Shown here one piece after another: positions 18,259 to 24,027 of a stretch of 24,475 nucleotides of DNA. A program made the position numbers and the translations under genes. The stretch comes from a virus, in the IMG/VR virus record IMGVR_UViG_3300020448_000037, positions 1 to 24,475 of that record. One strand, given 5' to 3'. The notes beneath the pieces are model-generated. The model worked only from the letters and a program-made list of their open reading frames with translations. It searched no databases and had not been told where the DNA came from. How positions within the stretch are numbered: position 1 is the first letter of the stretch; every line of letters begins with the position of its first letter.

Positions 18259-18419
18259 AAAAGAAAAACTTAAAAACACTAATCAATGACCTTGAGGTTG
18301 CAATCGCTGAACTAAAAGCAGAGGTGTATTCAGACCCTGCTGCATATCGTATAAGTAGTGATAGCGATAAAACAACATCCTATCTTGACATCAACGACGA
18401 AGACGGACTCTGCGACTGA
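18255..18419 (+). CDS. Small acidic protein coupled to talC, unknown
   Basis: 54 aa, overlapping the talC stop as ATGA. It has a basic start (MKKKNLKTLINDLEVAIAEL) forming a short helix, then an acidic tail (DINDEDGLCD). The next ORF overlaps it without an ATG. No family is recognised; the coupling suggests co-expression with TalC. Confidence 0.6.
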   Translation: MKKKNLKTLINDLEVAIAELKAEVYSDPAAYRISSDSDKTTSYLDINDEDGLCD

Positions 18420-18849
18420 CTATGAAAATCCCTGGTTATATCAAGGTGCAACTTTCACTTCTAACCATATTAATGATTTCTTCGGTTTTGTCTACTGTAT
18501 TACAAATACTAACAATGGGCGAAAATATATTGGAAGAAAATACTTTTATGCGTACAGAACACCTAAGGGGAAGAAGCGAAAAGTAAAACAAGAGTCTGAT
18601 TGGAAAAAATATTATGGGTCTTGCCCAGAGTTAAAAGAAGATATTAAACGGTATGGAAAGGAACAGTTCCAACGTGAGATCATGAGCATACATAAGGCAA
18701 AGGGACTAGTCAACTTTGAGGAGACTAGACAACTTTTCCACTACAATGTTCTCACGGAGGCACTCGACGATGGCACACCACTCTACTACAACAGTAACAT
18801 CCTTGGTAGGTACATGCGAAAAGACTATTTTGGATGCAATAAATCGTAA
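18358..18849 (+). CDS. SegE-like GIY-YIG endonuclease
   Basis: Up to 163 aa. The GIY-YIG nuclease core is seen as GFVYCI (43-48) and KYIGRK (56-61, with Arg at 60), followed by SDWKKYYGSCPELKEDI, YGKEQFQREI and FEETRQLFHYNVL, then YYNSNILGRY. This layout matches my memory of the SegE-like phage GIY-YIG proteins, which are homing-type or DNA-processing nucleases. No in-frame ATG exists near the N-terminus: the candidates are GTG 18358 and TTG 18385, both inside the upstream 54-aa gene, without a clear ribosome site. Domain call is good; the start is uncertain. Confidence 0.72.
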   Translation: MIAIKQHPILTSTTKTDSATDYENPWLYQGATFTSNHINDFFGFVYCITNTNNGRKYIGRKYFYAYRTPKGKKRKVKQESDWKKYYGSCPELKEDIKRYGKEQFQREIMSIHKAKGLVNFEETRQLFHYNVLTEALDDGTPLYYNSNILGRYMRKDYFGCNKS

Positions 18850-18853
18850 AACA

Positions 18854-18994
18854 ATGCTTGACACAGAGAACCCTGTAGTGTATAATAAACTTATACGACA
18901 TTATGAAGATAAAGGAGCACAGTTCTACGGTGACGTAGATGAAAACTATGACCTCCTCTTATCTAAACTTGAACAGGATCTTAACTATGCCTAA
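18854..18994 (+). CDS. Small 46-aa protein, unknown
   Basis: Starts 4 nt after the GIY-YIG stop; product is acidic and helical (MLDTENPVVYNKLIRHYEDK...). A consensus sigma70 promoter lies inside its first codons. It overlaps the next gene by 8 nt. A longer frame to 18716 exists but would lie over the nuclease gene and is less likely. Confidence 0.5.
   Translation: MLDTENPVVYNKLIRHYEDKGAQFYGDVDENYDLLLSKLEQDLNYA
18858..18886 (+). promoter_or_regulatory. Perfect-consensus sigma70 promoter inside a gene
   Basis: TTGACA (18858-18863), 17-nt spacer, TATAAT (18881-18886). The start would be near 18893, inside the 46-aa gene. The first full gene downstream is at 18987. Confidence 0.7.
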
Positions 18995-19477: not shown

Positions 19478-19978
19478 ATGAAAGTATTAGATAACTTTCT
19501 TCCAGAGACAGAGTTCTATCCTATGCAACAGATGTTTCTTTCGGAAGAGTTTCCTTGGTTTTATAATCCTCGTGTAGTTGGTGATGAACAAACTAACCAT
19601 GAGTTATATCAAATGTGTCATTCCTTCTATGTGCAATGGGAGTGGCAATCACAATATCGTAATCTAGTTGCACCTGTATTGAATCGTTTAGACATATTAC
19701 AACCTCTTAGAATTAAAGCAAACTTAACTTTTAAAATGGATGACAACTATGAAAGTGGTTGGCACCATGACTTTGAGGCAGCAAATAAAATACAAGAACA
19801 TAACACAGCAATCTTTTATCTAACTACAACTAATGGACCTACTCTATTTGAAAATGACAGGGTTGATTGTGTTGCGAATAGACTAGTCTTGTTTCATAAT
19901 ACTGATAAGCACACTGGTACATATGCTACTGATGCAAAAGAACGAGTGGTAATCAACTTTAACTTTATCTCACCTTAA
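19478..19978 (+). CDS. 2OG-Fe(II) oxygenase-like protein (first of two)
   Basis: 166 aa. The iron-binding set of prolyl-hydroxylase-type enzymes is visible: H96-x-D98 in GWHHDF, distal H145 in DKHTG, and R156 in ERVVINFNF for 2-oxoglutarate. FYLTTTNGPTLFEND is the usual strand between them. Short 2OG oxygenases are common in T4-like cyanophages, with unknown substrates. No ribosome site can be seen: a terminator stem lies directly in front, so expression probably depends on read-through. The next gene follows after 2 nt. Confidence 0.75.
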   Translation: MKVLDNFLPETEFYPMQQMFLSEEFPWFYNPRVVGDEQTNHELYQMCHSFYVQWEWQSQYRNLVAPVLNRLDILQPLRIKANLTFKMDDNYESGWHHDFEAANKIQEHNTAIFYLTTTNGPTLFENDRVDCVANRLVLFHNTDKHTGTYATDAKERVVINFNFISP

Positions 19979-19980
19979 CT

Positions 19981-20523
19981 ATGGAATGGTTAGTACAACA
20001 CAAATTATTAGTAGCATACATTGAACCTTTTGCACAACTAGAGGAGTATGCATTCAAAGCAATAGAAAGAAAAGAACCTGTAGGAGATGATAAGTTAGTC
20101 TCCATCCAAAAAGAATATTCAATGGATGTGCCACCTGAGTTTGAGAAGTGGTTGTGTAACACTATTGACACACAGTTCGATCTACACAAACCTCAATGTG
20201 GTATCATAGGTAACAATAATGGCAAACGTCTTCGTATCATTAAGATGTGGGCAAATGAAATGTATAAAGGAGATCAGCACCAACCTCACATGCATCAATA
20301 TTCATTATATTCTTTTAGTTGTTATATAAGATCTACTAATGATGATGCTCCGTTCTATTTTATTGACAATAATCAAGGTCAAGCGGTCTGGATAAATGAG
20401 AACTCTCAAGGCCACGCCTTGATTTTTCCTGGTACACTCATCCATACTGTGTACCCTAAGCAGACAGAAGATGTCAGGATATCGGTATCAGGAAACGTAG
20501 TTTTAGATGTTGACAAAACTTAA
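19981..20523 (+). CDS. 2OG-Fe(II) oxygenase-like protein (second of two)
   Basis: 180 aa. HQPHMHQYSLYSFSCYI contains H103-M-H105 (HxH in place of HxD, as in the phage 2OG-FeII_Oxy_5-type family), then FPGTLIHTVYP with distal H155, and R166 in VRISVSGNVVL. The PG..H.V.P block is typical of this family. It is a different subtype from the upstream gene, so the two are not a recent duplication. It starts 2 nt after that gene, suggesting one unit. Substrate is unknown. The promoter of the hli operon overlaps its last codons. Confidence 0.75.
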   Translation: MEWLVQHKLLVAYIEPFAQLEEYAFKAIERKEPVGDDKLVSIQKEYSMDVPPEFEKWLCNTIDTQFDLHKPQCGIIGNNNGKRLRIIKMWANEMYKGDQHQPHMHQYSLYSFSCYIRSTNDDAPFYFIDNNQGQAVWINENSQGHALIFPGTLIHTVYPKQTEDVRISVSGNVVLDVDKT

Positions 20524-20538
20524 TCTTTCCTATATAAT
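20510..20538 (+). promoter_or_regulatory. Perfect-consensus sigma70 promoter of the hli operon
   Basis: TTGACA (20510-20515), 17-nt spacer, TATAAT (20533-20538); the -35 overlaps the end of the oxygenase gene. The start is near 20545, about 20 nt before the first hli ATG. It probably drives everything to the terminator at 22699. Confidence 0.85.
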
Positions 20539-20565: not shown

Positions 20566-20772
20566 ATGACTGTTACAACTGAATCAGGCGGAAGACAAAA
20601 TGCCTTCCCAAACGAGACTCGTCCTTATATTGATGAGAGCATCTCCTATGAATCTTATGCAAAGAATGCAGAGAAGATTAATGGAAGATGGGCAATGCTC
20701 GGATTAGTTGCAGGTGTAATATCATATACTTTTACAGGAAACTTCTTTTTCTTTGGACTCGCAGGATTCTAA
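20566..20772 (+). CDS. hli: High-light-inducible protein (68 aa)
   Basis: Single-helix chlorophyll-binding protein that protects photosystem II. Its C-terminal half has the Hlip motif AEKINGRWAMLGLVAG with Glu, Asn and Arg ligand/ion-pair residues, then the helix ending in FFFFGLAGF. A 30-residue N-terminal extension precedes it, unlike the four mini-Hlips that follow. First gene of the operon; no ribosome site is evident. Confidence 0.9.
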   Translation: MTVTTESGGRQNAFPNETRPYIDESISYESYAKNAEKINGRWAMLGLVAGVISYTFTGNFFFFGLAGF

Positions 20773-20805
20773 AGACAACCCTTTACCCAACAACAGGACA
20801 CAATC

Positions 20806-20913
20806 ATGACACCAGAAGCAGAAAGATTTAATGGATGGGCAGCAATGCTTGGTTTCGTAGCAGCAGTAGGTGCATATGCTACAACAGGAAACATCATTCC
20901 AGGCATCTTCTAA
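20806..20913 (+). CDS. hli: Mini high-light-inducible protein (35 aa), altered motif
   Basis: MTPEAERFNGWAAMLGFVAA then a helix ending NIIPGIF. The Glu and Asn of ExxNGR are present but Arg is Trp (FNGWAAM), so the usual Glu-Arg pairing would be missing. An AGGA site precedes the ATG. The stop overlaps the next ATG (TAATG). Confidence 0.85.
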   Translation: MTPEAERFNGWAAMLGFVAAVGAYATTGNIIPGIF

Positions 20914-21035
20914 TGACAGACAAAGATGCAAAAACATTTGCTGAGAAACTCAATGGCAGATTCGCCATGCTCGGCATCATCGCAGGTTTAGGTGCTTACC
21001 TAACAACAGGTCAAATTATTCCAGGTTTCGTATAA
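20913..21035 (+). CDS. hli: Mini high-light-inducible protein (40 aa)
   Basis: Canonical motif AEKLNGRFAMLGIIAG and closing TGQIIPGFV. Starts at a TAATG overlap; the CCAGG of the previous gene's IPG codons may act as its ribosome site. It ends in a TAATG junction. Confidence 0.88.
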   Translation: MTDKDAKTFAEKLNGRFAMLGIIAGLGAYLTTGQIIPGFV

Positions 21036-21148
21036 TGAACAACAATGACATTTTCGTGAAAGCACAAGGACGTGCAGCAATGATGGGATTCGTAGTTCTA
21101 TGTGTAACTTACGCATTCACAGGTCAACTTATACCAGGTTTCGTATAA
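21035..21148 (+). CDS. hli: Mini high-light-inducible protein (37 aa), altered ligands
   Basis: The motif reads VKAQGRAAMMGF: the conserved Glu is Val and Asn is Gln, both being chlorophyll-ligand positions, while Gly-Arg and the helix remain. It closes with TGQLIPGFV like its neighbours. The two changes may alter pigment binding or mark an unneeded copy. Confidence 0.82.
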   Translation: MNNNDIFVKAQGRAAMMGFVVLCVTYAFTGQLIPGFV

Positions 21149-21261
21149 TGAACTACTGGAAGACAGCAGAACAAATGAATGGACGTCTCGCAATGATGGG
21201 TCTATTCGCAGCAATAGTGAACTATGGTTTCACTGGTTGGATAATTCCAGGTTTCTTTTAA
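21148..21261 (+). CDS. hli: Mini high-light-inducible protein (37 aa)
   Basis: Canonical AEQMNGRLAMMGLFAA motif and TGWIIPGFF end. It starts in the same 20-nt junction sequence that precedes the fourth hli gene and overlaps the following gene by 1 nt (TAATG). Last of five hli genes in tandem. Confidence 0.88.
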   Translation: MNYWKTAEQMNGRLAMMGLFAAIVNYGFTGWIIPGFF

Positions 21262-21440
21262 TGTCTGATATTATTCCACTTACCAATGACATTTCGTATG
21301 GTCAAGCATTAATATGGTGCTTGTATCCCTTCGGTGTCTTGGTGGGAATGGAATTATTTCTAAGAGCATCAAATGATGATGACGATGATGATGAAGGTGG
21401 CGGTGTAATGTCACCTGTAGGAGTCTATCAAGGAGCATAA
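21261..21440 (+). CDS. Small membrane protein with poly-Asp tail, unknown
   Basis: 59 aa from ATG 21261 (TAATG overlap with the last hli). One hydrophobic helix (ALIWCLYPFGVLVGMELFL) is followed by DDDDDD, EGGG and MSPVGVYQGA. I recall acidic tails of this kind in other cyanophage proteins next to hli genes. A membrane role in the thylakoid or inner membrane is likely, function unknown. Confidence 0.7.
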   Translation: MSDIIPLTNDISYGQALIWCLYPFGVLVGMELFLRASNDDDDDDEGGGVMSPVGVYQGA

Positions 21441-21514
21441 TGTATCAACAAATTTTATTCGCATGTGTATTAGGTTACACTGCAATCAACGGACTACCGT
21501 TCGTACTTTCTTAA
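21440..21514 (+). CDS. 24-aa membrane mini-protein
   Basis: MYQQILFACVLGYTAINGLP plus four residues: one short hydrophobic helix, starting at a TAATG overlap with the previous gene. The size is that of small photosystem or cytochrome b6f subunits, but no such subunit is recognised. Coupling to its neighbour is the main support. Confidence 0.5.
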   Translation: MYQQILFACVLGYTAINGLPFVLS

Positions 21515-21542
21515 ACTATAACGCTGAGGAGCACAAGCACAA

Positions 21543-21647
21543 ATGACCAACAAATTTTTAAATATCCCACCTGCATGGATGGGTCTCGCAGAGTTCGTAT
21601 TTTTCGTAGCAATAGGAGTTGCTGCAGGTAACGCAGGTTGGGTGTAA
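21543..21647 (+). CDS. 34-aa membrane mini-protein
   Basis: MTNKFLNIPPAWMGLAEFVF then a hydrophobic stretch rich in Gly and Ala ending GNAGWV. A GAGGAG ribosome site lies upstream. The stop overlaps the next ATG. One membrane helix of unknown function. Confidence 0.6.
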   Translation: MTNKFLNIPPAWMGLAEFVFFVAIGVAAGNAGWV

Positions 21648-22006
21648 TGTCGTACCACGACGTTATGCAGGTATACAAAAGACCCATGACGGTCAAGTAT
21701 ATTCCAACAATATTCTGGGCATTCATTTCTGTGATATCATTATCACTAGCATTCCCTGTACTAGCACATGCCTATGAGACAGAACCTACTATCTGGGTTC
21801 AAGTACCTCAATGGTCTGATGACTGGGAGAAGTGTGCAGTGGATGTACCAGATGCAGCATGTCATTGGTATGTTGCCAATGCAGACAATACCTTTGGTGA
21901 AGGGTTTGACTGGGAGAACGCACCATGGTATAGTGTAGAAGGACTACATGATGTAGCACCTATACAAAAACAAACAGTAGTACAAAAATTACAGGACGTA
22001 GGATGA
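21647..22006 (+). CDS. Exported protein with signal peptide and two cysteines, unknown
   Basis: 119 aa from ATG 21647 (TAATG overlap); ATG 21686 is a possible alternative start. Residues about 14-42 form a signal peptide with a clear cleavage site AHA-YE (residues 40-42). The mature part (about 77 aa) is rich in Trp, Asp and Glu (VQVPQWSDDWEKC) and has just two cysteines, C63 and C72, which could pair. It would act in the periplasm or thylakoid lumen. No family is recognised. It overlaps the next gene by 4 nt. Confidence 0.65.
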   Translation: MSYHDVMQVYKRPMTVKYIPTIFWAFISVISLSLAFPVLAHAYETEPTIWVQVPQWSDDWEKCAVDVPDAACHWYVANADNTFGEGFDWENAPWYSVEGLHDVAPIQKQTVVQKLQDVG

Positions 22007-22293
22007 TCCCACTATTACTAACAGCATCAAGTTTTCTTAACTTTTGTTTCTACATCTATGCAATCGGTTTCGTAGTTGCATTAGGTCTAGAACAGTATAT
22101 TAAAGTTAGACCTCTATCTGTTGACTCAACAATGAATGAAAGAAATGCTTTCATTGTTCAAACTAATAGGAAGTATCTATGGAGACAGACATGGGTAGTC
22201 AATATAAACTGGTTCGTATGTAACCTAGGTTTATACTTCTTATCAAGAAGCATGCAAGCACCTGTAGGAGATACTTTTTGGCAAGGAATGTAG
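22003..22293 (+). CDS. Small membrane protein (two or more helices), unknown
   Basis: 96 aa, ATGA overlap with the previous gene. A helix at residues about 9-29 (NFCFYIYAIGFVVALGLEQ), a polar segment, then a second around 68-81 (NINWFVCNLGLYFL). No family recognised. It overlaps the DoxX-like gene by 16 nt, so all three genes from 21647 to 22700 are tightly coupled. Confidence 0.65.
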   Translation: MIPLLLTASSFLNFCFYIYAIGFVVALGLEQYIKVRPLSVDSTMNERNAFIVQTNRKYLWRQTWVVNINWFVCNLGLYFLSRSMQAPVGDTFWQGM

Positions 22294-22700
22294 GTCTACT
22301 GATATTGAGAATATCAATAGGCACCATGCTCATACATCATGGTTATGAGAAGACAGCAGATATAGAGAACTTTGCAGATGCATTTGTAAGACCTATTGGA
22401 ATACCTTTTCCAATACTAGCATCTTACATAGCAGCATACTCTGAGATCTATGGTAGTTGGTTATTGATAGCAGGATTATTCACAAGACTAGCATCACTTT
22501 CAATCGTAGGCACAATAGGTGTAGCAATATACCATGCGATTGTCACAGCAGGATTTAACATATACTTACTAGAACTTCTAATCCTATACATGGGAGGAGC
22601 ACTTTGTATCCTTCTATTAGGTGGAGGAGACTTTGCTATCGACAGGTTATTGAAGAAGTTTGGTATAAAATTTAACAAACCTCATATACCTTTTACATAA
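22278..22700 (+). CDS. DoxX-family membrane protein
   Basis: 140 aa with about four helices. The opening LLILRISIGTMLIHHGYEKT is the DoxX signature region (LR...G..m..HG..K), followed by helices around YIAAYSEIYGSWLLIAGLF and YLLELLILYMGGALCILLLG. The start is TTG (22278), supported by AGGAG at 22266-22270, 7 nt upstream. DoxX proteins are membrane components of quinone-linked sulfur oxidation and redox-stress systems. Their role in a phage is unknown; an effect on the quinone pool is speculation. Last gene of the operon before the terminator. Confidence 0.78.
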   Translation: MARNVGLLILRISIGTMLIHHGYEKTADIENFADAFVRPIGIPFPILASYIAAYSEIYGSWLLIAGLFTRLASLSIVGTIGVAIYHAIVTAGFNIYLLELLILYMGGALCILLLGGGDFAIDRLLKKFGIKFNKPHIPFT

Positions 22701-22727
22701 AGTTGAGTATTTTTACTTAACTTTTTT
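22699..22727 (+). terminator. Rho-independent terminator
   Basis: AAAGTTGAGTA (22699-22709), TTTT loop, TACTTAACTTT (22714-22724), an 11-bp stem with one G-T pair, running into a T tract to 22727. It ends the hli-DoxX operon at the DoxX stop codon. Confidence 0.85.
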
Positions 22728-22755
22728 ACTTTACAAAACTTTACGTTTGTGTTAA

Positions 22756-22763
22756 TATAAATA
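22756..22763 (+). promoter_or_regulatory. T4-type late promoter of psbA
   Basis: Exact TATAAATA. The start would be near 22770, giving a leader of about 175 nt before the psbA ATG. No other gene lies between the terminator at 22699-22727 and psbA, so this box probably serves psbA (and perhaps psbD by read-through). Confidence 0.65.
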
Positions 22764-22944
22764 CAAACAAAGGTGGGGAAACCCGCATGCCAAGGACCCG
22801 AAAGAATCGTAACCCTTCGCACAACTGCTCTCAAACCAAGACCTATAGGCAGTATAATACTTCGTCTTTCTATCCAGTAGTGAGGGATTACTGGAAATAA
22901 GTTTCGCATCTACCCTTGATGCCCTACTTACAAACGTCTTACTA
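22764..22944 (+). ncRNA. Structured psbA leader, possible PhotoRC-type RNA
   Basis: The 5' leader has no ORF and several stems: GTGGG / CCCGC (22773-22777 with 22782-22786) closed by a GAAA tetraloop, a CCTATAGG palindrome near 22843, and a 7-bp stem TCCAGTA / TACTGGA (22873-22879 with 22889-22895). Known PhotoRC RNA motifs occur upstream of psbA in marine cyanobacteria and phages; whether this is one needs a covariance-model search. A TATAAT at 22853-22858 lacks a matching -35. Confidence 0.4.
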
Positions 22945-24027
22945 ATGACAACTCTATCTAAAAGGCAGGGTGGTCTCCTTCAGGGATGGCCAGAGTTCTG
23001 CGAATGGGTAACATCAACAAACAACAGAATCTATGTTGGTTGGTTCGGTGTACTCATGATTCCATGCTTACTCACAGCAGCAGCATGTTTCATCGTTGCT
23101 TTCATAGCAGCACCTCCTGTCGATATCGACGGAATCAGAGAACCAGTAGCGGGTTCTTTCTTATATGGTAACAACATCATCTCTGGTGCAGTTGTTCCAT
23201 CATCAAACGCTATAGGTCTACACTTCTACCCTATATGGGAAGCAGCAACTGTCGATGAATGGTTGTATAACGGTGGTCCTTATCAGTTGGTAATCTTCCA
23301 CTTCCTTATCGGTATCTCAGCATACATGGGAAGACAGTGGGAACTATCATACAGATTAGGAATGCGTCCTTGGATCTGTGTTGCTTATTCAGCACCAGTA
23401 TCTGCTGCATTTGCTGTATTCTTAGTATACCCATTTGGTCAGGGTTCATTCTCTGATGGTATGCCACTCGGTATCTCAGGTACTTTCAACTTTATGTTCG
23501 TGTTCCAAGCAGAGCATAACATCCTAATGCATCCTTTCCATATGGCAGGTGTAGCAGGTATGTTTGGGGGATCACTCTTTAGTGCAATGCACGGTTCTTT
23601 AGTTACATCATCTCTAATCAGAGAAACTACAGAGCAGGAGTCTCAGAACTACGGTTATAAGTTCGGACAAGAAGAAGAAACATACAACATAGTAGCAGCA
23701 CACGGTTACTTTGGTCGTCTTATCTTCCAGTATGCTTCATTCAACAACTCAAGAAGTCTTCACTTCTTCCTAGCAGTATTCCCTGTAGTATGCGTATGGT
23801 TAACATCCATGGGTATATGCACAATGGCATTCAACCTTAACGGTTTCAACTTCAACCAATCAGTTGTAGATGCAAACGGAAAGATTGTACCAACATGGGG
23901 AGACGTTCTTAACAGAGCAAACCTAGGTATGGAAGTTATGCATGAGAGAAATGCACACAACTTCCCACTTGACCTTGCTTCAGCAGAGTCTACACAGGTT
24001 GCATTAACAGCACCTACAATCGGTTAA
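22945..24027 (+). CDS. psbA: Photosystem II reaction centre protein D1
   Basis: Core D1 subunit of photosystem II in the thylakoid membrane. Full length (360 aa), one residue longer at the N-terminus than usual, so positions run one higher than standard. Redox Tyr Y162 (TyrZ), the Mn-cluster ligands around D171, E190, H333, E334 and D343, and the processing site (..PLDLA-SAES) are all present. The residue equivalent to 130 is Gln (YMGRQWEL), the D1:1-type state. There is no intron in the frame. The C-terminal half is near-identical to host-type D1. It has its own late promoter and leader and is followed by a terminator. Confidence 0.97.

Follow-up and report, generated by a model that had tools for sequence, protein, structure and literature searches.

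Related cassettes and DoxX systems

The closest described counterparts of the locus treated here are the photosynthetic cassettes of Prochlorococcus and Synechococcus myoviruses, e.g., P-HM1, P-HM2 and P-TIM68, in which psbA, psbD, hli, psa and ndhI genes are carried. The locus belongs to the same phages, the same neighbourhood and the same T4-GC gene groups, and the accessory genes of these cassettes have previously been given as hypothetical, as "carboxylesterase" or as thiosulfate:quinone oxidoreductase (TQO). No earlier description was found of host homology for the acidic-tailed, 34-aa (mini34) and DoxX proteins that such genes encode, or of the gene order psbD-DoxX-exported described below. 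The hli operon of Prochlorococcus is a second counterpart, containing the same hli-acidic-mini34 string as the phage and an hli gene 91% identical to the second hli of the locus. The host operon ends in hli, whereas at this point the phage carries genes for an exported two-cysteine protein, a two-helix membrane protein and a DoxX-family protein.

For DoxX itself, the nearest relatives are the proteins of marine picocyanobacteria (PF07681), whose HHG-x-EK and E-I-x-GSW motifs are kept in the phage protein. The latter is only 140 aa long, compared to a host reading frame of approximately 188 aa, and the host C-terminal tail is absent from it. The DoxX domain is also common to the phage protein and the DoxX-SodA-SseA membrane oxidoreductase complex of Mycobacterium tuberculosis, while the DoxX operon of Haemophilus influenzae and Neisseria, which is controlled by oxidative stress, also encodes a periplasmic protein (PMC7907618). 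No superoxide dismutase, rhodanese/sulfurtransferase or MNIO-type gene was found among the annotated neighbours of phage DoxX.

Organization of the predicted hli-led operon

The whole stretch of DNA that was analysed (the window, 24.5 kb) is a fragment of a T4-like cyanophage, with the Prochlorococcus phages P-HM1, P-HM2 and MED4-213 as its nearest relatives. Five hli genes (20566-21261) are followed without a gap by six short genes (21261-22700), and four of the junctions among these six overlap by 1-16 nt. The features of the operon and its immediate context are as follows.

20510..20538, + strand: predicted sigma-70 promoter of the hli-led operon, TTGACA-N17-TATAAT (12/12 consensus match)
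20566..20772, + strand: hli 1, high-light-inducible protein, 68 aa (PF00504 slightly below cut-off; synteny with P-HM1 hli03)
20806..20913, + strand: hli 2, 35 aa (91% identity to hli of the Prochlorococcus hli operon)
20913..21035, + strand: hli 3, 40 aa (ORF call and PF00504 profile search)
21035..21148, + strand: hli 4, 37 aa (ORF call; tblastn order)
21148..21261, + strand: hli 5, 37 aa (PF00504 above cut-off; 70% identity to the hli that ends the host operon)
21261..21440, + strand: acidic-tailed single-helix membrane protein, 59 aa; T4-GC 437, phrog_7843 (PHROG match; Prochlorococcus homologues)
21440..21514, + strand: mini24, hydrophobic 24-aa peptide (overlaps the acidic-gene stop codon at its start; length and position conserved)
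21543..21647, + strand: mini34, single-helix 34-aa peptide; T4-GC 554, phrog_17067 (PHROG match; host homologues)
21647..22006, + strand: predicted exported two-Cys protein, 119 aa; T4-GC 438 "carboxylesterase", phrog_14182/1187 (PHROG match; host homologues)
22003..22293, + strand: two-helix membrane protein, 96 aa; T4-GC 285, phrog_10609 (PHROG match)
22278..22700, + strand: DoxX-family membrane protein, 140 aa, TTG start; T4-GC 555, phrog_4606 (PF07681)
22699..22724, + strand: hairpin resembling an intrinsic terminator, with a T run after it (-10.5 kcal/mol; stem conserved in the related loci L011, L012 and L013)
22810..22908, + strand: PhotoRC-II cis-regulatory RNA, not part of the module but of the psbA unit that comes next (Rfam RF01717; 64.7 bits against a gathering threshold of 39)
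22945..24027, + strand: psbA (D1), context (ORF call; comparison with P-HM1, P-HM2 and MED4-213)

An initial reading of the sequence alone had described 21261-22700 as an uncharacterised module of six overlapping or adjacent genes, placed behind one hli promoter and closed by a terminator. All six reading frames are indeed present, and both signals were recovered as predictions, the promoter with perfect -35 and -10 elements at 20510 and the terminator as the hairpin at 22699-22724, which a terminator scan had missed owing to its GC rule. In 70 of 101 cassettes a perfect promoter match precedes the first hli, compared with a background of one per 20.9 kb. A single promoter and a single terminator for the hli-led run are thus sound as a prediction. 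The term "uncharacterised" is only partly apt, as the genes belong to the known groups T4-GC 437, 554, 438, 285 and 555.

Coding status of the small genes

Across 12-13 cassettes, pooled pN/pS was 0.30 for the acidic gene, 0.59 for mini24, 0.49 for mini34, 0.28 for the exported gene, 0.20 for the two-helix gene and 0.10 for DoxX. Because all six values fall below 1, the small genes are judged, from substitution patterns, to be real and to evolve under constraint. The weakest coding case is mini24, which has the highest pN/pS; a 24-codon ORF nevertheless stands at its position in approximately 30 of 37 loci, usually overlapping the stop of the acidic gene. In mini34, the pattern EFxFFxxxGxxAGxxG is invariant across eight diverged copies. 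A 32-aa Hlip-like peptide takes the place of mini24 in two loci (L145, 5731-5826; L192, 3233-3328), which hints that this position is a slot for exchangeable single-helix proteins.

Gene order across phages

The full order acidic-mini24-mini34-exported-two-helix-DoxX is found at the same place in P-HM1, P-HM2 and MED4-213. Between DoxX and psbA these three phages have a 27-aa ORF, a 72-aa ORF, heme oxygenase (ho1) and a 58-aa ORF, all of which are absent from positions 22701-22944 of the window. P-SSM4 keeps the cassette order, including the exported and two-helix genes, and is without DoxX. In P-TIM68, DoxX and the two-helix gene lie approximately 10 kb apart and the exported gene is absent; DoxX sits there in the order psaD-DoxX-ndhI. 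The two-helix gene has further settings: in P-RSM4 it lies close to gp32, in P-SSM2 it adjoins heme oxygenase and in P-SSM7 it is found 3' of psbA.

Among Synechococcus phages, the exported gene lies directly 3' of psbD in ACG-2014a, b, c, d, e, f, g, h, i and S-CAM8, with S-8S56 as an exception to this adjacency. The order psbD-DoxX-exported occurs in ACG-2014a, h and i, although some ACG-2014 records name the gene 5' of DoxX psbA or D1 rather than psbD. Most phages with the exported gene are without DoxX, and none of the Synechococcus phages carrying both is among those found with the two-helix gene. Taken together, the psbD-linked and P-HM-type layouts place DoxX and the exported gene as neighbours in two arrangements, and both genes recur next to reaction-centre genes.

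In environmental loci with enough upstream DNA around the exported gene, the acidic gene lay 5' of it in 65 of 68 loci, and hli likewise in 65 of 68; these loci are fragments, often redundant and sometimes overlapping stretches of one contig, that were retrieved by their similarity to the window, so that such counts are not population frequencies, and a gene missing from a neighbourhood may still exist elsewhere in the genome. Three loci (L159, L161 and L162) contain two copies of the exported gene, with hli, acidic and psbA markers all absent from the vicinity. The run is best described, on the evidence of gene order, as a composite of an old core (hli, acidic, mini-proteins and exported) and two mobile additions (DoxX and two-helix). 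Independent scattering in relatives, which the sequence-only reading had named as grounds for rejecting its proposal, is seen for DoxX, with 63 of its 80 loci lying away from photosynthesis cassettes, and likewise for the two-helix gene; it is not seen for the hli-acidic-mini-exported row (65 of 68). No sign was seen that any of the six products is a virion part.

Host relatives of the acidic and mini34 proteins

Homologues of the acidic protein were detected in 56 of 61 Prochlorococcus genomes (E<=0.01), some of them matching the Asp-rich tail only, and homologues of mini34 in 51 of the 61 at the same threshold. Four of five inspected genomes have the row hli-hli-acidic-mini34-(28-aa ORF)-hli, and the fifth has hli-acidic-mini34. 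The hli strings of the inspected host loci (L403-L407) correspond to the 5' half of the phage cassette, and their 28-aa ORF is signal-like. For the two-helix protein no convincing host homologue was found, the sole match being in one of 120 genomes at E=0.005. The exported protein, the acidic protein and mini34 do have host homologues, in keeping with a host relationship that by itself implies no direction of transfer. With DoxX, four of the six genes are host-related by homology, and the term "phage-made" is therefore wrong for most of them. Cyanophage photosynthesis genes would gain four host-related families in this way, namely DoxX, the exported two-Cys protein, the acidic-tailed protein and mini34.

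The exported two-Cys protein

This protein consists of a phage N-terminal membrane or signal segment and a host-type domain with invariant C63, C72 and H73. Host proteins of this type are approximately 82 aa long with a short hydrophobic N-terminus, and in Prochlorococcus their domain mostly shows 70-74% identity to that of the window. The phage-type N-terminus (Y-H-D-V-M and a hydrophobic stretch) is fused to the exported domain in 53 of 78 distinct phage versions, and it occurs without the domain in a few other cases, e.g., P-RSM4. In several phage versions the segment ends in signal-peptidase-like motifs (AYA, AHA or ASA), so export of the two-Cys protein is likely.

Of 250 genomes from the order that includes Prochlorococcus and marine Synechococcus, 177 matched the domain in a profile search, usually with two copies per Prochlorococcus genome. 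In a phylum-wide sample, 19 of 244 genomes matched, and all 19 were already among those of the order search; as judged by these profile searches, the family is confined to one cyanobacterial order. The host genes that were inspected are not adjacent to photosynthesis genes. Phage synteny links the family to psbD, which would suggest a PSII-related protein, so far unstudied, in highly abundant phototrophs.

The protein has no family match in Pfam or NCBIfam. T4-GC 438 has been given as "carboxylesterase" and as a sporadic host gene (PMC3037559), and a core "Carboxylesterase" cluster of high-light Prochlorococcus has been listed (PMC3686209), for which no connection with the exported gene could be made. 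The label was rejected: the 33 invariant columns among 30 sequences include two Cys, one His and five Trp and no Ser, and no esterase family was matched in Pfam or NCBIfam. In GenBank, "carboxylesterase" is also attached to unrelated short acidic-tailed peptides and to one bare N-terminal peptide (misapplied labels at L006 4682-4807, L239 1166-1291, L238 3409-3531 and L008 4160-4294). This labelling is a chain of annotation error, and it is one of two misleading labels, with "TQO", that the present comparison would correct.

Identity and origin of DoxX

The sequence-only reading had named a DoxX-family protein in the module, and the assignment holds, with a match to PF07681 of 63.9 bits (E=2e-17) against a curated cut-off of 23.6. 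A start at the first ATG would cut into helix 1, and the RefSeq proteins of P-HM1 and P-HM2 are shortened in this way, beginning at an internal ATG; alignment to copies with an ATG start supports the TTG start at 22278. A scan of bacterial genomes with the single phage sequence gave no match, which reflects a limit of sensitivity, since a profile search found DoxX homologues in 96 of 101 genomes of the genus Prochlorococcus, approximately 80 of them at E<1e-59. The phage protein is approximately 66% identical to Prochlorococcus DoxX.

Of 80 environmental DoxX loci, 17 lie within photosynthesis cassettes and 63 outside, and 55 of these 63 have T4-type replication genes (gp43, gp44, gp45, gp62, UvsX or gp41), or genes that usually adjoin these, within the retrieved DNA. 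An origin of the replication-type loci in pelagiphages was rejected, as the best nucleotide matches are cyanophages, e.g., P-SSM2 and P-TIM68, in a check made on one locus. In a FastTree phylogeny, rooted at the midpoint and read without a formal clade test, DoxX from psbA cassettes is nested in the replication-neighbourhood copies, and those in turn in marine picocyanobacterial DoxX; the phage copies thus fall within the host clade, as is expected of a host-derived auxiliary metabolic gene. Most simply, this nesting suggests that DoxX joined the cassette late, from the replication-gene neighbourhood of related phages.

DoxX proteins elsewhere have been linked to envelope oxidative or thiol stress (PMC7907618; PMC12452194), the DoxX operons described there being responsive to oxidative stress of the envelope (PMC7907618). 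The phage protein may likewise handle quinone or thiol stress, although direct thiol chemistry is uncertain because it is poor in cysteines. No paper was found that treats DoxX together with cyanophage, Prochlorococcus or thylakoid. Profiles of the DoxX, exported and two-helix proteins found no sequence relatives in the PDB, and AlphaFold models of the exported and DoxX proteins were unusably poor (mean pLDDT 51 and 54; pTM 0.26 and 0.21, respectively).

Proposed function and alternative explanations

High-light-inducible proteins (Hlips) protect photosystem components. The region may be regarded, with about even confidence, as the final part of an auxiliary operon, modular and mostly related to host genes, that serves photoprotection and the upkeep of photosystems in the course of infection, and the use of the cassette is probably to keep the photosynthetic membrane of the infected Prochlorococcus cell working. 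The association with photosynthesis, which the sequence-only reading had also drawn, is borne out by hli on the 5' side, psbA or psbD on the 3' side, the orders psbD-(DoxX)-exported and psaD-DoxX-ndhI, and the host hli operon. In P-HM2 infecting MED4, auxiliary metabolic genes including hli and psbA fall in the middle expression cluster and are strongly expressed in light (PMC5082946). What the comparisons show is the order of the genes, their conservation and constraint, their homology to host genes and their mobility; the mechanism that we infer runs as follows. One promoter would yield five Hlips and small partner proteins. Chlorophyll and carotenoid on intermediates of photosystem assembly would probably be the ligands of the Hlips. 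The acidic-tailed protein and mini34, which stand in the Prochlorococcus hli operon in the same string, would be probable Hlip-associated membrane subunits; the sharing of this string by host and phage makes the partnership a testable proposal. The phage N-terminus would carry the exported domain across the membrane, to a lumenal or periplasmic location close to freshly synthesized D1 and D2, where it would probably work by means of a disulfide. DoxX, as a recent arrival, would probably reinforce host DoxX against oxidative stress of membrane quinones or thiols. These parts could act in parallel on the same membrane, so that a single complex would not be needed, and a photosystem-specific role of DoxX is not required, since most DoxX loci adjoin replication genes.

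Co-location may reflect a mere hotspot for host-type genes. In this account, which is a less probable but serious contender, the hli-psbA stretch is a landing site, and the DoxX, two-helix and exported proteins have unrelated jobs. It draws on the 63 of 80 DoxX loci outside photosynthesis cassettes, the other contexts of the two-helix gene, the ho1 and small genes that the P-HM phages have between DoxX and psbA and the window does not, and the absence of DoxX from P-SSM4; it is opposed by the near-constant hli-acidic-mini-exported row, by the adjoining of DoxX and the exported gene in two architectures and by the occurrence of DoxX alone with PSI/NDH genes. The same mobility bears on complexes. 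A single six-part assembly, as first proposed, is not supported, with DoxX lying outside photosynthesis cassettes in those 63 loci and the two-helix gene moving as well. A smaller complex of the exported, two-helix and DoxX proteins, tuning the plastoquinone pool or photosystem assembly, would suit their overlapping genes and shared order in P-HM-type phages, yet it is improbable given that P-SSM4 has the first two without DoxX, that P-TIM68 separates two-helix and DoxX by approximately 10 kb and lacks the exported gene, and that the two-helix carriers found include no Synechococcus phage in which DoxX and the exported gene occur together. Slightly better placed, although still unlikely, is a picocyanobacteria-only redox pair of lumenal exported protein and membrane DoxX, protecting or assembling the reaction centre of photosystem II as a PSII-care factor that phages have copied, with the acidic protein and mini34 as Hlip subunits overlooked for their size.

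Two biochemical assignments of DoxX fare worse still. A copper-chelating, RiPP-like pair, in which a small exported Cys peptide would accompany an HvfX-type DoxX in the manner of bufferins, is very unlikely: HvfX is the best NCBIfam match of DoxX, many bufferin clusters contain doxX genes (PMC12452194) and the partner of DoxX is exported and Cys-bearing, but the match reaches 53.2 bits against a cut-off of 80 (NF050144), the exported domain has C-x8-C instead of the EGKCG or CxxxxC signatures, and the MNIO enzyme (PF05114) exceeded its cut-off in 0 of 61 Prochlorococcus genomes, so that this reading fails. The TQO label of RefSeq and PHROG, by which electrons from sulfur compounds would pass to the quinone pool, is hardly credible. 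It appears as the product annotation in P-HM1, P-HM2 and P-TIM68 and finds an echo in a weak DoxD match; at 20.5 bits, however, that match falls short of its cut-off of 22.7, the NCBIfam TQO large-subunit model scores 15.8 against 300, so that both curated cut-offs are missed, no DoxA partner was found among the neighbours, and neither the exported nor the two-helix protein has a Pfam match at E<=1. The DoxDA interpretation is thereby largely refuted, and the reading as a modular operon for photoprotection and photosystem maintenance is preferred.

Other features of the window

Elsewhere in the window, two PHROG labels disagree with Pfam: 18358-18846 is called "NAD synthetase" but has a strong match to the SegE GIY-YIG endonuclease (E=4e-54), and 19478-19978 is called "DNA endonuclease V" but contains a 2OG-Fe(II) oxygenase domain, which makes the label doubtful. 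A second perfect TTGACA-N17-TATAAT promoter is located at 18858, 5' of a 104-aa ORF.
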